Below, piece after piece: positions 3,493-19,051 of a stretch of DNA of 41,722 nucleotides (within the stretch, counting starts at the first letter, position 1; the number at the start of each line of letters is the position of its first letter). The DNA is taken from positions 1-41,722 of the forward strand of contig JADLHC010000275.1 in assembly GCA_020849035.1 (NCBI GenBank), given 5' to 3'. The position numbers were made by a program, and so were the translations under genes. This DNA comes from Planctomycetia bacterium (GTDB lineage Bacteria; Planctomycetota; MHYJ01; WSZJ01). The notes under the pieces are model-generated. The model did not search any database. It saw only the letters and a list, made by a program, of their open reading frames with translations, and had not been told where the DNA came from.

Positions 3493-3843
3493 GCGCGGTC
3501 CTCCTGAATGGAATGCGGGGGCGCGAAGGGCCCGGGCAAGTCCGGGGACCAGGCCGGCGGCGTTCCGCAGATCAGAGAGCAATCCGAGAGCCCTGAAGTC
3601 CCGGAGGCGAGCGCGGCCTGCGCCCTTAAGGCCGACTCCCGGAGCAACGAACGTGCCGGTCAGTCCGACGGTTCCGGCACCCCTGAAGCCGGCGACGGGC
3701 GATCCTCCGCACACCATGCGCCCGATTCCGCAGGCTCCAAGCCGACATGCCGATCCGGAATGGCGGGCGCCCCGCCCGCGCGGGATTCGCGGAACTCGCA
3801 CCCGGCGAGCCGCGTCTCATCGGACACCCGAAAGGAGACCTCG

Positions 3844-4716
3844 ATGAAGCGCCTGGCCGCCGCCCTGCTCGCCGCGATTCTCCCGCTGCCGTTCGTGTTC
3901 GCGGGCGACCCGGAACCGGTCGCGGACCTGATCGACGGCCTGCGCGCCGAGGACGCCGCGCGGCGCGAAGCCTGCGAGGAGGAGCTGGACCGGCGCTGGG
4001 AGGAAGCGAAAGCGGCGATGGAGGCCGCGCTTCCCGGAGAAAAGGACGCCGAGGCAAGGGCGCGGCTGAAGCGGCTGCTGGAGCACGGCGGACCCACCGT
4101 GTGGGAGGAGACGGTCGAGGCGGGTCTCAAGCGGGCGGGGAAGCTGGGATGGCCGTGCCTGGTCGTGCGCGGGGACGGACCGCTCGCGGAGGGCGCGACG
4201 GTGGAGGGACTGAATCTCAGGGCGGAGTTGAAGGCGCCGGACACCGTCCGGGCGCTGCGCGGCTACGTGGCGGTCTGGGTTTCGTCGAAGGACGTGCCGG
4301 GCATCGACGCGCGGAAGGAGCTGGAGCGCCCCTACGCGCCCGAAGGTCACGGCGGGATCGAGCTCTACGTGGTGCATCCGAAGCGCGGGGTGTGCCACTA
4401 CCTGCGCGGCTGGTGGAAGGCGGAGCGGCTCGCCGCGGAGCTCGAACGCGGGCGCGAATTCGCGCGGATCGAAGGCGCCGAGGAACTGCGCCGCGCGCGG
4501 GCGGCGGCGCTCGAGGAACTCAAGCAGCGGCCGGGCGCCGATTCGTGCGAGAACGTACGGCGCCACCTTCACCCGTGGAACTGCAGCGCGACGGAGTGCA
4601 CGCTGAAGCGCCTCGCGCTCTGCTACCGGCAGGGGGACGGGATCCTGGGCGCGGACGTCGGTCAGACGCTCCCGGACCCGATGGCGGGCGGGCTGGACGC
4701 AAACCTCGGCTGGTAG
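3844..4716 (+). CDS. Secreted hypothetical protein
   Basis: Signal peptide MKRLAAALLAAILPLPFVFAGD preceded by GAAAGGAG RBS; Cys-containing C-terminus; ends at TAG 4716. Confidence 0.6.
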   Translation: MKRLAAALLAAILPLPFVFAGDPEPVADLIDGLRAEDAARREACEEELDRRWEEAKAAMEAALPGEKDAEARARLKRLLEHGGPTVWEETVEAGLKRAGKLGWPCLVVRGDGPLAEGATVEGLNLRAELKAPDTVRALRGYVAVWVSSKDVPGIDARKELERPYAPEGHGGIELYVVHPKRGVCHYLRGWWKAERLAAELERGREFARIEGAEELRRARAAALEELKQRPGADSCENVRRHLHPWNCSATECTLKRLALCYRQGDGILGADVGQTLPDPMAGGLDANLGW

Positions 4717-15178: not shown

Positions 15179-16465
15179 CTACTTCGCCGGCTTGAGCTCC
15201 GCGTCGAAGAACTCGTACGTGGCGTCCAGCGTCCGCGTCAGCTCCGGGTCCTTCCAGCCGTGCCCCGCGCCATCGAGGATGTCGCAGCGCGACTTCACGC
15301 CGGCCTTCCGCAGCGCCTCGTCCATCACCGTGGCCTGGCCCGTCGGGATCAGCGGGTCCTTCGTCCCCTGGAACATCAGCACCGGCGCGTCCCCGGCCGA
15401 GACGTGCGCCAGCGGCGAGGCCGCGCGGTAGGCGTCCGACTTCTCCTCCTGCGTCCCGCCGAGGAACTCCTTCAGGATGCCGAGGCTCTGCTCCGGCAGG
15501 TCCTTCGCCAGCAGGTCCGTCGGCCCGAAGAACGACACCGCCGCCTGCACCTTGCTCGACTCCTTCTCCCACCCCCCCTTCCCTTCCAGCGCCGGGTCGT
15601 CCACCGTCCCGAGCATCAGCGCGAGGTGTGCGCCGGCGCTGAACCCGACGACGCCGATGTGCTTCCCGTCCAGCCCGTACTTCTCCGCGTTCGCGCGCAG
15701 GAACCGCACCGCGCACTTCACGTCCTCCACCTGCGCCGGCCAGCGGTACTTCGGGGCAAGCCGGTACTGCACCGTCGCCGAGGCGTAGCCCCTCTGAGCG
15801 AACAGCCACGTCAGGTTGTCGTGCGCCTTGCGGTCCCCCGCCTGCCAGCCGCCGCCGTGGATGACCACGATCGCGGGAAGGGGCTTCTTCGCGTCCTTCG
15901 GTCGCGAGAGGTCGAGCCGGAGGTCCTCGTCGCCGCCCCTGCCGTAGACGATGTCAGGTTCGAAGAGCACTCCATCGGGTGCGGCGGCGCCTTTCGCGAC
16001 GCGCACGCGACCGTTCACCTCGAGCTCCGCCTGCGCGAGGCAGGTCTCCTCGGTGCACATCATGTACGTCAGGACGAGCGTGAATTCCGCATCCCCGGGA
16101 CTCGCCTCCGCCGCCACCGTGAGCGGGATTTCGAACACCACCGTCCCCACGTGCGCCTCGTACGAGTCCGGGTCCGTCCCGAATTTCCGCGGAGCCGGCT
16201 CCTTCACGCCCTTGCCCGCCGTCACCGGGCCCGACTTCGCCTCGACCGTCGTCGGCAGCCCCGCCCGCGTCGGCGCGAACGGGTAGATGTGGTACCCCTC
16301 CGGGATCGCGACCTCGACCTTCGCCACGACCGCGCCGCCCGGCGCCGCCGCCGCAGGCTCCACCGCCGTCACGCGCCCTTCCGCGTAGGGCCGGTCCCCC
16401 TCGTCCTGCGCGAGCGCCGGAACCGACGCCGCCAGCAGCAGCCACGCCCGGAGAAGCGCCCGCAT
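15179..16465 (-). CDS. DsbD-alpha-like domain fused to alpha/beta-hydrolase (BD-FAE-like esterase)
   Basis: N-terminus VEVAIPEGYHIYPF...LTYMMCTEETCLAQAELEV parallels the DsbD N-terminus in this operon; C-terminus has VIHGGGWQAGD and GFSAGAHLAL. Confidence 0.85.
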   Translation of the reverse strand: MRALLRAWLLLAASVPALAQDEGDRPYAEGRVTAVEPAAAAPGGAVVAKVEVAIPEGYHIYPFAPTRAGLPTTVEAKSGPVTAGKGVKEPAPRKFGTDPDSYEAHVGTVVFEIPLTVAAEASPGDAEFTLVLTYMMCTEETCLAQAELEVNGRVRVAKGAAAPDGVLFEPDIVYGRGGDEDLRLDLSRPKDAKKPLPAIVVIHGGGWQAGDRKAHDNLTWLFAQRGYASATVQYRLAPKYRWPAQVEDVKCAVRFLRANAEKYGLDGKHIGVVGFSAGAHLALMLGTVDDPALEGKGGWEKESSKVQAAVSFFGPTDLLAKDLPEQSLGILKEFLGGTQEEKSDAYRAASPLAHVSAGDAPVLMFQGTKDPLIPTGQATVMDEALRKAGVKSRCDILDGAGHGWKDPELTRTLDATYEFFDAELKPAK

Positions 16466-16502: not shown

Positions 16503-16820
16503 CTACCCCGTGATCTTCTCCAGGCGCTTCTTCATCGCGTCAAGGGAGGCGCCCCCGACGACCCTGTCCATCTCCCGGCCGTCCTTGAAGAACACGAACG
16601 TCGGCAGGCCCATCACGCCGAGCTGCGAGGCCGCACCGGTCGCGTCGTCGATCTTCGCCTTCACGATCTTCGCCTTGCCGCCCGCCTGCGCCGCGAGCTG
16701 CTCCAGCACGGGAGCCATCTTCGTGCAGGCGTGTCAGCCGTCCCCCCAGAAGTCCACGACCGTCACGCCCTTCGCGACGGCATCCTGGAACTCCGCATCC
16801 GTCACCGTTGCGAGGTCCAT
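16503..16820 (-). CDS. Selenocysteine-containing thioredoxin (in-frame TGA at 16734-16736 read as Sec)
   Basis: MDLATVTDAEFQDAVAKGVTVVDFWGDG-U-HACTKMAPVLEQLAAQAGGKAKIVKAKIDDATGAASQLGVMGLPTFVFFKDGREMDRVVGGASLDAMKKRLEKITG; aligns gap-free with DFWATWCGPCKRVAP of the neighbouring Trx. Confidence 0.85.
16684..16730 (-). promoter_or_regulatory. Putative bSECIS of the Sec-thioredoxin
   Basis: Transcript: UGA-CAC-GCCUGC-ACGAAGAUG-GCUCC[CGUGCU]GGAGC-AGCUCGCGGC-GCAGGC; 5-bp upper stem, 6-bp lower stem, apical loop starts 23 nt after UGA with G at loop position 2. Confidence 0.65.
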
Positions 16821-16822
16821 GG

Positions 16823-17146
16823 TTACCCGATCAGCTTCTTGAGCTTGTCTTCGAAGTACGCCTTCGACTGCGCGCCCACCACCCGGTCGACTTCCTTCCC
16901 GTCCTTGAACAGCACGACCGTGGGGATCGACATCACCCCGAACCGCGCGGGCGTCCCCTGGTTCTGGTCGACGTCCATCTTGTAAATGCGCGCCTTCCCG
17001 GCGTACGCGCCGGCGAGATCCTCGACAATCGGCGCCACCCGCTTGCACGGCCCGCACCAGGTTGCCCAGAAGTCGACCATCGCCACGCCCTTGGCGCCGA
17101 CTTCCGCTTCGAATGCGTCGTCCGACAGTTCCTTCGCGTTGCCCAT
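16823..17146 (-). CDS. Thioredoxin (canonical CGPC)
   Basis: MVDFWATWCGPCKRVAPIVEDLAGAYAGKARIYKMDVDQNQGTPARFGVMSIPTVVLFKDG. Confidence 0.96.
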   Translation of the reverse strand: MGNAKELSDDAFEAEVGAKGVAMVDFWATWCGPCKRVAPIVEDLAGAYAGKARIYKMDVDQNQGTPARFGVMSIPTVVLFKDGKEVDRVVGAQSKAYFEDKLKKLIG

Positions 17147-17206: not shown

Positions 17207-19051
17207 TTACTTCCCCGCGCCCGCCGCGTCCCGGAGCGCGTCCACCACGAGCCCCGGCGTCAGCACCTCCGGCAGGAGGAACACCTCGCGCGCCGGGTCC
17301 GCCGGGATCACGACGTACATCGGCACGCCGGCCTTTCCGTGCTTCTTCAGCCACGCGCTGATCACCTTGTTCGGCTTCGTGAAGTCCGCCTTGAGCGGCA
17401 CCACGCCCAGCTTCGCCATCTCCTGCCGGACCGCGTCGGTTTCGAGCGCCACGCGCTCGTTCGTCTTGCACGTGAGTCACCAGTCGGCGGTGAAGTCGAT
17501 GAACCCGGGCTTGCGGGCGGCGCGGATGGCGGCGACGTTCTCCTCGGAGAAGGGCTGCCAGGGGAGGTGCGGCTGGTACTGCAGCCCCTCGGTGCGGAAG
17601 GCGGCGGTGGCGGTGCCGGCCTCGACGATCTTCGTCACGAGGAACAGCTTCCCGGCGGCGATCGAGACGAGGAGCGCGGCGGTGATCGAGAGCCACCGCG
17701 CGCGCGGCGTCGAGACCTCGGTGCCCCACTTTCCGTAGATCCACGCCCCGAACGAGACCGCCGTCAGGAACGCGAGGTACCCGATCACCCCGGAGGTGCC
17801 GGTCAGGGTCGCGATCGTGTCCATGAGCCACACGGCCGTCGCGACGAGCCCGAAGCCCATGATCTTCTGGAACGGCTCGATCCAGGGGCCGGGTTTCGGG
17901 AGGAAGCGGAAGAGGGCGGGGACGAAGCCGATGACGAGGAACGGGAGGGCGAGGCCGCGGCCGGCGGCGGACATGAAGAGGAAGACGCCCCAGCCCGGGA
18001 GGGTGAGGGCGAAGCCGAGGCCGGTGCCGAGGAAGGGGGCGCTGCACGGGGTGGCGATGACGGTGACGAAGAGGCCGGTCATGAGGTGGCCGACCCATCC
18101 CTGCTTGCGCCCGGCCTGGGAGGCGACGCCGGCGCCCATCTGCGGGACTTCGAAGACGCCGAGGAGGCTGAGGGCGAAGACGAAGATGACGGTCGTGAGC
18201 CCGATCACGAAGCCGGGCGCCTGGAACTGGAAGCCCCAGCCGACCTGGCTCCCGAGCGAGCGGAGAATCACGACGGCGAGCGCGAACGCGTTGAGACAGA
18301 TCAGGACGCCTGTCCCGTAGGCGAGGGCCGCGCCGCGCCGCGCGCCGGGGGTGACGTGCTTCTGCTCGACGATGCTGAAGAGCTTGAGCGTGAGCACGGG
18401 CAGCACGCACGGCATGATGTTGAGCAGGAGGCCGCCGAGGAAGGCGAGGCCGAGCATCCCGAGGAACGAGGCGTCCGCGGGCGGGCCGGTCGGCGGGGCG
18501 GGGCCCGCCGCGGGTCCCGGCTTCTTCTGGTCCGGGGGCGGCGCCGTGCCGCCCTCGAGGACCGTCACCTTGCCCTCGAACTCGATCTCCCGCTCCTCGA
18601 GGCACACCGACATCGTGCACAGCATGTGCTTGACCGACACCTTGAACACCGCCGGCCCGGGCTTCGCCGCCTCCGTCACCACCAGCGGCACCTCGAACGT
18701 CACCGTCTCTTCGTGGAACAGGTACTCCTCGACAGTTCCGTTCTCGTAGGTCTCCCTGTGCAGCTTCGGCTCCGCCTCCTTCACGCCCTCCGCCACGCGC
18801 ACCGGCCCGGCCGTGACCGAGAACGACGTCGGGATCCCCGCCGTGCCCTTGCGGATCGAGTAGATGTGCCACCCCTTCGGGATCGCCACCTCGATCTTCG
18901 CCGTCACCGTGTCGCCCATCCGCGCCTCCGCGGGCGTCACCGAGACGAGCTTCCCCTGCAGCGCCGCAAAGTCCGCCGGCACCTCGTCCGCGTCCTGCGC
19001 GAAGACGCGGGAAGCCATCAGCACGGCCGTCAGCAGCGAAACGAGGCGCAT
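17207..19051 (-). CDS. dsbD: Selenocysteine-containing DsbD-family protein (in-frame TGA at 17477-17479 read as Sec)
   Basis: N-terminal DsbD-alpha domain, membrane core with NIMPCVLPVLTLKLFSI and VIATPCSAPFLGTGLGF, C-terminal FIDFTADW-U-LTCKTNERVALETDAVRQEMAKLGVVPLKADFT...; both ORF pieces are in the same frame. Confidence 0.85.
17443..17459 (-). promoter_or_regulatory. Putative bSECIS of the Sec-DsbD
   Basis: Transcript CGAGCGC[GUG]GCGCUCG: perfect 7-bp stem, G-initial triloop starting 24 nt after the UGA. Confidence 0.65.

Follow-up and report, generated by a model that had tools for sequence, protein, structure and literature searches.

DsbD is a membrane protein that moves reducing power out of the cytoplasm, acting as a conductor of thiol:disulfide reductant and as a main gate for such power across the inner membrane. 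Cytoplasmic thioredoxin reduces its membrane Cys pair, from which electrons pass to the gamma domain, then to the alpha domain and finally to extracytoplasmic thiol proteins; in the Escherichia coli enzyme, the first Cys of the gamma domain (C461) forms a mixed disulfide with the alpha domain. We take the CDD model cd02953 to be that of the DsbD gamma domain. Selenoproteins with a UxxC motif, in which U is selenocysteine (Sec), have been listed under the name 'thiol:disulfide interchange protein' in surveys since 2006 (PMC1794560; PMC13188914 Table 1), and an ocean survey (GOS) included 22 UxxC sequences of 'Trx-like 2 (thiol disulfide interchange protein)', assigned to cd02953 (PMC2398784). 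Taken together, these entries and the cd02953 assignment indicate that Sec at the DsbD gamma site was already known. In the accessible portions of the three papers, these families are given without domain architecture, the GOS sequences being metagenomic, and there is no account of how they are distributed in planctomycetes, of a mosaic gene or of Sec acquired a second time. A 2026 inventory of prokaryotic selenoproteins, with 119 families and subfamilies, does not contain full-length DsbD under that name, and gives Sec-thioredoxin (UxxC) as an experimentally verified family (PMC13188914). A planctomycete genome paper tabulates selenoprotein candidates (PMC4807772). In the open-access literature we found no description of Sec in full-length planctomycete DsbD or of its repeated gain, an earlier mention being possible in PMC4807772. 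What is new here is the mosaic nature of the gene described below and a gain of Sec separate from that in the Sec-DsbD of its genus-mates.

The window, i.e. the whole stretch of DNA that was analysed, comprises 41,722 nucleotides of a Planctomycetia bacterium (GCA_020849035.1, contig JADLHC010000275.1). It very probably encodes a full-length DsbD in which Sec, specified by UGA 17477-17479, takes the place of the first catalytic Cys of the gamma domain (UxxC). The features of the locus are as follows.

17207-19051, minus strand: putative Sec-DsbD read-through frame, from ATG 19051 to TAA 17207-17209, with Pfam DsbD_N, DsbD_TM and Thioredoxin_7
18587-18931, minus strand: DsbD alpha (N-terminal periplasmic) domain, with the CTMSVC pair C160/C165 (DsbD_N at 56-170), of native planctomycete type
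17813-18454, minus strand: DsbD beta (transmembrane) domain, with PCVLP (C230) and TPCSAP (C351) (DsbD_TM at 215-428), Myxococcota-like
17303-17560, minus strand: DsbD gamma (C-terminal thioredoxin-fold) domain, with U540 and C543, Myxococcota-like
17477-17479, minus strand: in-frame TGA, codon 540, in place of the leading catalytic Cys of gamma and here taken as Sec
17468-17470, minus strand: TGC for the second catalytic Cys (C543) of UxxC
17443-17459, minus strand: predicted hairpin, candidate bacterial SECIS, with a 7-bp stem (CGAGCGC/GCGCUCG) and a GUG loop
16823-17146, minus strand: ordinary thioredoxin (WCGPCK) directly downstream of DsbD, over the TIGR01068 cut-off
16503-16820, minus strand: second Sec candidate, a thioredoxin with TGA 16734-16736 in the motif GDG-U-HACTK

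A reading of the window from the sequence alone had noted that the DsbD frame stops at TGA 17477-17479 and resumes in the same frame. Indeed, the 539 codons from ATG 19096 to this TGA on the minus strand are followed, after this only interruption, by 89 further codons in an unchanged frame (LTCKTNERVALETDAVRQEMAKLG...) up to TAA 17207-17209, giving a product of 629 aa when TGA is counted as a residue. ATG 19096 is a second in-frame start further upstream, from which the residue numbers used here (C160, C165 etc.) are counted; ATG 19051 is the better start and opens the signal peptide MRLVSLLTAVLMASRVFAQ. With TGA read as a residue, DsbD_N, DsbD_TM and Thioredoxin_7 all score above their Pfam gathering thresholds in a single chain, the Thioredoxin_7 match at 513-598 running across the TGA. 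Each of the three domains holds a redox pair (C160/C165, C230/C351 and U540/C543), and all these columns are invariant across nine aligned Sec-DsbD sequences. The first reading had assigned the TGA to the first catalytic Cys from the family motif, and alignment with DsbD gamma domains of known structure agrees: residue 540 falls on the leading Cys of their WCxxC (ADWCVACK in 4ip1, for instance; DFTADW-U-LTCK in the window).

The window protein thus resembles DsbD of known structure (1uc7, 2fwe, 4ip1) in the order of its three domains, in the Cys pairs of alpha and beta and in a gamma thioredoxin domain aligned over CxxC, but differs in having UGA as the codon of the first catalytic residue in gamma. 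It shares UxxC at the homologous site with the survey families (PMC1794560, PMC13188914 and PMC2398784). Since it misses the NCBIfam DsbD cut-off (NF001419; 128 bits vs 330), it is a member of the DsbD family in the wide sense, outside the NF001419 subfamily. A related DsbD-like membrane and thioredoxin part is found in TsoB (NF045694), a rhodanese/DsbD fusion-like selenoprotein, which the window protein matches with 118 bits against a cut-off of 805; TsoB has two Sec in a UxxxxU motif, unlike the window protein, in which Pfam detected no rhodanese domain.

The in-frame TGA in DsbD is real and not an error. The catalytic codon is TGA in 5/5 genomes of the genus and also in four genomes of other families (G008, G009, G011 and G023), whereas some 85 homologues outside these groups have a Cys codon, TGC or TGT; at 21 further planctomycete loci it is TGA in 13 and TGC in eight, with no other inner stop. 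Searching for homologues with U or C at this site, as the first reading had suggested, thus gave either TGA or a Cys codon in each. That all genus-mates and other planctomycete families share TGA at this codon, with a Cys codon in the remaining homologues read, is more than chance would give; the DsbD frame has a single stop within about 600 codons. A sequencing error or a recent nonsense mutation from TGC to TGA would take only one base and the draft assembly is split into 349 contigs, but the TGA recurs in the separately assembled genome of G003 and in three genus-mates of a different DsbD lineage, and a second TGA occupies the homologous catalytic position one gene away; independent genomes refute this explanation, whose probability we regard as negligible.

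The part downstream of the TGA is maintained as protein, as indicated by a pN/pS of 0.24 over these 89 codons, vs 0.39 over 339 codons before the TGA (window vs G003), and by the identity of 78 of the 89 residues between the same two genomes. The same purifying selection rules out a pseudogene, in agreement with the earlier view that both error and pseudogenisation were improbable. Were the TGA a true stop, the product would be a DsbD without a gamma domain and the 89 downstream codons a remnant, in line with the use of TGA to end ordinary conserved genes in the window; that the protein evolves more slowly after the TGA than upstream of it, that the C543 partner and the domain fold are retained, and that the TGA position is conserved over several families of the phylum make such a termination very unlikely. 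Under the standard code, the protein is read as a truncated DsbD plus a fragment.

At least five window genes, including conserved ones, terminate in TGA, so that the genetic code has not been changed genome-wide. A general reassignment of UGA to Trp or Gly would likewise open the frame through the TGA, but these termini, the lack of inner TGA in long conserved genes such as selA and selB, the location of the TGA exactly at a catalytic Cys, and the tRNA-Sec and Sec enzymes in the genome leave it with hardly any credibility. The Sec machinery, proposed earlier as a check on the reading, was found in the same assembly: SelA (E 1.8e-159), SelB and SelD (E 4.3e-106) each exceed the curated cut-off, and genes for tRNA-Sec (anticodon UCA) score 77 and 73 bits. 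SelD has one inner TGA itself, as in Sec-SelD. We infer that UGA 17477-17479 would be decoded as Sec by the SelA, SelB, SelD and tRNA-Sec of this genome. Overall, the source genome (G000) harbours three tRNA-Sec-like genes, at C207:368-459 (L008), C85:90747-90838 (L009) and C110:51733-51811 (L010). The third has 79 nt, is devoid of a D arm, lies just at the Rfam cut-off and was not called by ARAGORN; possible readings of it are a reduced tRNA-Sec, a pseudogene or contamination.

The distribution of the TGA across Planctomycetota was examined by searching 392 genomes with a profile built from nine Sec-DsbD sequences. Among the best matches listed, 100 of 149 genomes carry one in-frame TGA, 95 of these 100 also having SelA; conversely, TGA occurs in 95 of the 134 SelA-positive genomes among these matches. 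In a panel of 80 SelA-negative genomes, 69 had a DsbD match and three of these a TGA, all three being drafts of 87-91% completeness. The association between TGA and SelA is strong (Fisher p about 8e-22 for 95/134 among the matches listed vs 3/69 in the panel), its effect size being inflated because matches are ranked by similarity to the Sec sequences from which the profile was built; within the matches listed alone, p is 0.007. These counts refer to one TGA in frame, the exact codon having been read in the retrieved loci. The five genomes with Sec-DsbD and no SelA match among the matches listed (G014, G082, G222, G224 and G269) have completeness values of 67-91%, and their missing SelA presumably reflects incomplete assembly. 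As judged from these genome sequences, the results indicate that Sec in the DsbD gamma domain is common in Planctomycetota, a breadth which adds to the interest of the locus, as does the separate, second acquisition of Sec by its mosaic gene.

Decoding of the UGA as Sec would probably be guided by the predicted hairpin, which starts 17 nt past it, with 24 nt from UGA to loop and G as the first loop base; an identical stem with a GUC loop is found at the corresponding locus of G003 (L013). PMC13188914 gives the limits of bacterial SECIS elements as a distance of 16-37 nt, a loop of 3-9 nt, a stem of 4-16 bp and a G in the first two loop positions, and the window hairpin lies within all of them. 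When hairpins downstream of the codon were compared with synonymous shuffles, the mean z was -0.96 in Sec genes (n=23: 22 DsbD and the window's Sec-thioredoxin) vs 0.02 in Cys homologues (n=40), a difference with p 0.0004. The window hairpin alone did not exceed its shuffles (p 0.3, and 35/200 shuffles in a second run). The excess over shuffles in the group, combined with this single-gene value, supports a SECIS for the group and makes one plausible for the window gene. Rfam and tRNA scans of the window returned no matches, and the Rfam SECIS_1 model had none anywhere in the genome, a negative result that is uninformative because this narrow model found no match in control genomes either.

The neighbourhood of DsbD contains other candidate components of the same redox circuit. 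The first reading had reported a second TGA at the equivalent position one gene away, and this was verified: it lies at 16734-16736 in a thioredoxin separated from DsbD by one ordinary thioredoxin, and is kept in 3/4 genus-mates (G001, G002 and G003); in G004 no Sec-thioredoxin was matched beside the thioredoxin. The gene at 16503-16820 is of the Sec-thioredoxin type but, unlike the known family, has UHAC in a degenerate GDG context and not WCGPC. In the electron route that we propose, a cytoplasmic thioredoxin, perhaps that of the adjoining gene at 16823-17146, which is a possible donor to DsbD, would reduce the membrane pair C230/C351, from which electrons would pass to U540/C543 of the gamma domain, then to the alpha pair C160/C165 and finally to substrates outside the cytoplasm; U540 would bond transiently with the alpha domain as a selenenylsulfide. 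If Sec did re-evolve at this position, as discussed below, the planctomycete DsbD circuit, with its adjoining Sec-thioredoxin, would favour selenium at the gamma step.

Other unusual genes accompany DsbD in this and related genomes. In the window, the DsbD-thioredoxin cluster ends downstream with a gene at 15179-16465 (minus strand) that joins a DsbD_N (alpha-type) domain to an esterase-like alpha/beta hydrolase (BD-FAE); the combination is unusual, and its product could accept electrons from DsbD. G023 has, close to its DsbD, a thioredoxin with U (FWGPG-U-TSC) that is related to the Sec-thioredoxin of the window. Just upstream of the Sec-DsbD of G011, a thioredoxin-like frame (L027, ~3534-4040) has TGA at its first catalytic Cys (FWAEW-U-GYCK) and is likely to be another selenoprotein.

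Within the genus, gene order is conserved as exonuclease-like, Sec-thioredoxin (not matched in G004), thioredoxin, DsbD, Xaa-Pro peptidase and TPR, and two kinds of DsbD occupy the same slot: a planctomycete kind (FLEFTAFS-U-TNCR) in G001, G002 and G004, and the kind with FIDFTADW-U-LTCK in the window and G003. The alpha domain of the window protein is 54% identical to that of a genus-mate (L014) and has no match in the Myxococcota-like loci; its membrane and gamma domains are nearest to Cys-type DsbD of Myxococcota/'Deltaproteobacteria' (about 50-61%; membrane 54-61%). On these comparisons, the window DsbD is a mosaic of a native alpha domain and a Myxococcota-type membrane/gamma unit. No further DsbD of the native kind was found in G000 or G003.

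Phylogenetic trees of the membrane and gamma unit place the window sequence and that of G003 (L013) inside the Myxococcota-like Cys group with full support, and constraining all Sec sequences to a single clade costs 413 log units (AU test, p-AU 4e-66). Rejection of a single Sec clade indicates at least two origins of Sec in these sequences. The Myxococcota-like relatives have kept Cys, with a SelA match in 10/12 genomes (nine over the cut-off). A search of 379 genomes of their phylum for the TGA motif gave no hit with a strict pattern, which would miss variants of the motif; viral contigs did not match it, and plasmid records yielded only partial DsbD matches of <60% identity. In the simplest scenario, a foreign unit of Cys type took over the position of the membrane/gamma unit, and its Cys then changed to Sec anew. 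It is likely that two species of the genus exchanged their native Sec-DsbD membrane/gamma unit in this manner and then converted Cys to Sec again, the mosaic gene taking over the slot of the native Sec-DsbD, an anciently diverged form that genus-mates retain there; the direction of transfer and the order of events are inferred.

Two other histories bear on this second gain. Sec might possibly have been acquired from an unsampled Sec-bearing donor. Alternatively, the Sec codon could have been kept from the native Sec-DsbD through a small local recombination, as the DsbD that genus-mates have in this slot carries Sec at the equivalent residue; the flanks of the codon, which are of Myxococcota type (FIDFTADW-x-LTCK-NE) and differ from the native ones (FLEFTAFS-U-TNCR-LE), and the trees, which join the whole membrane and gamma unit with Myxococcota-like sequences, make retention of the old codon unlikely. 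With Sec gained anew after in-place replacement, the repeated gain would constitute a natural test of why some sites keep Sec, in which Cys and Sec forms of the same DsbD membrane/gamma unit are directly comparable. Besides that, in G002 (L015/L111) and G004 (L016/L112), two adjacent DsbD alpha domains were observed at the N-terminal end of the native Sec-DsbD.
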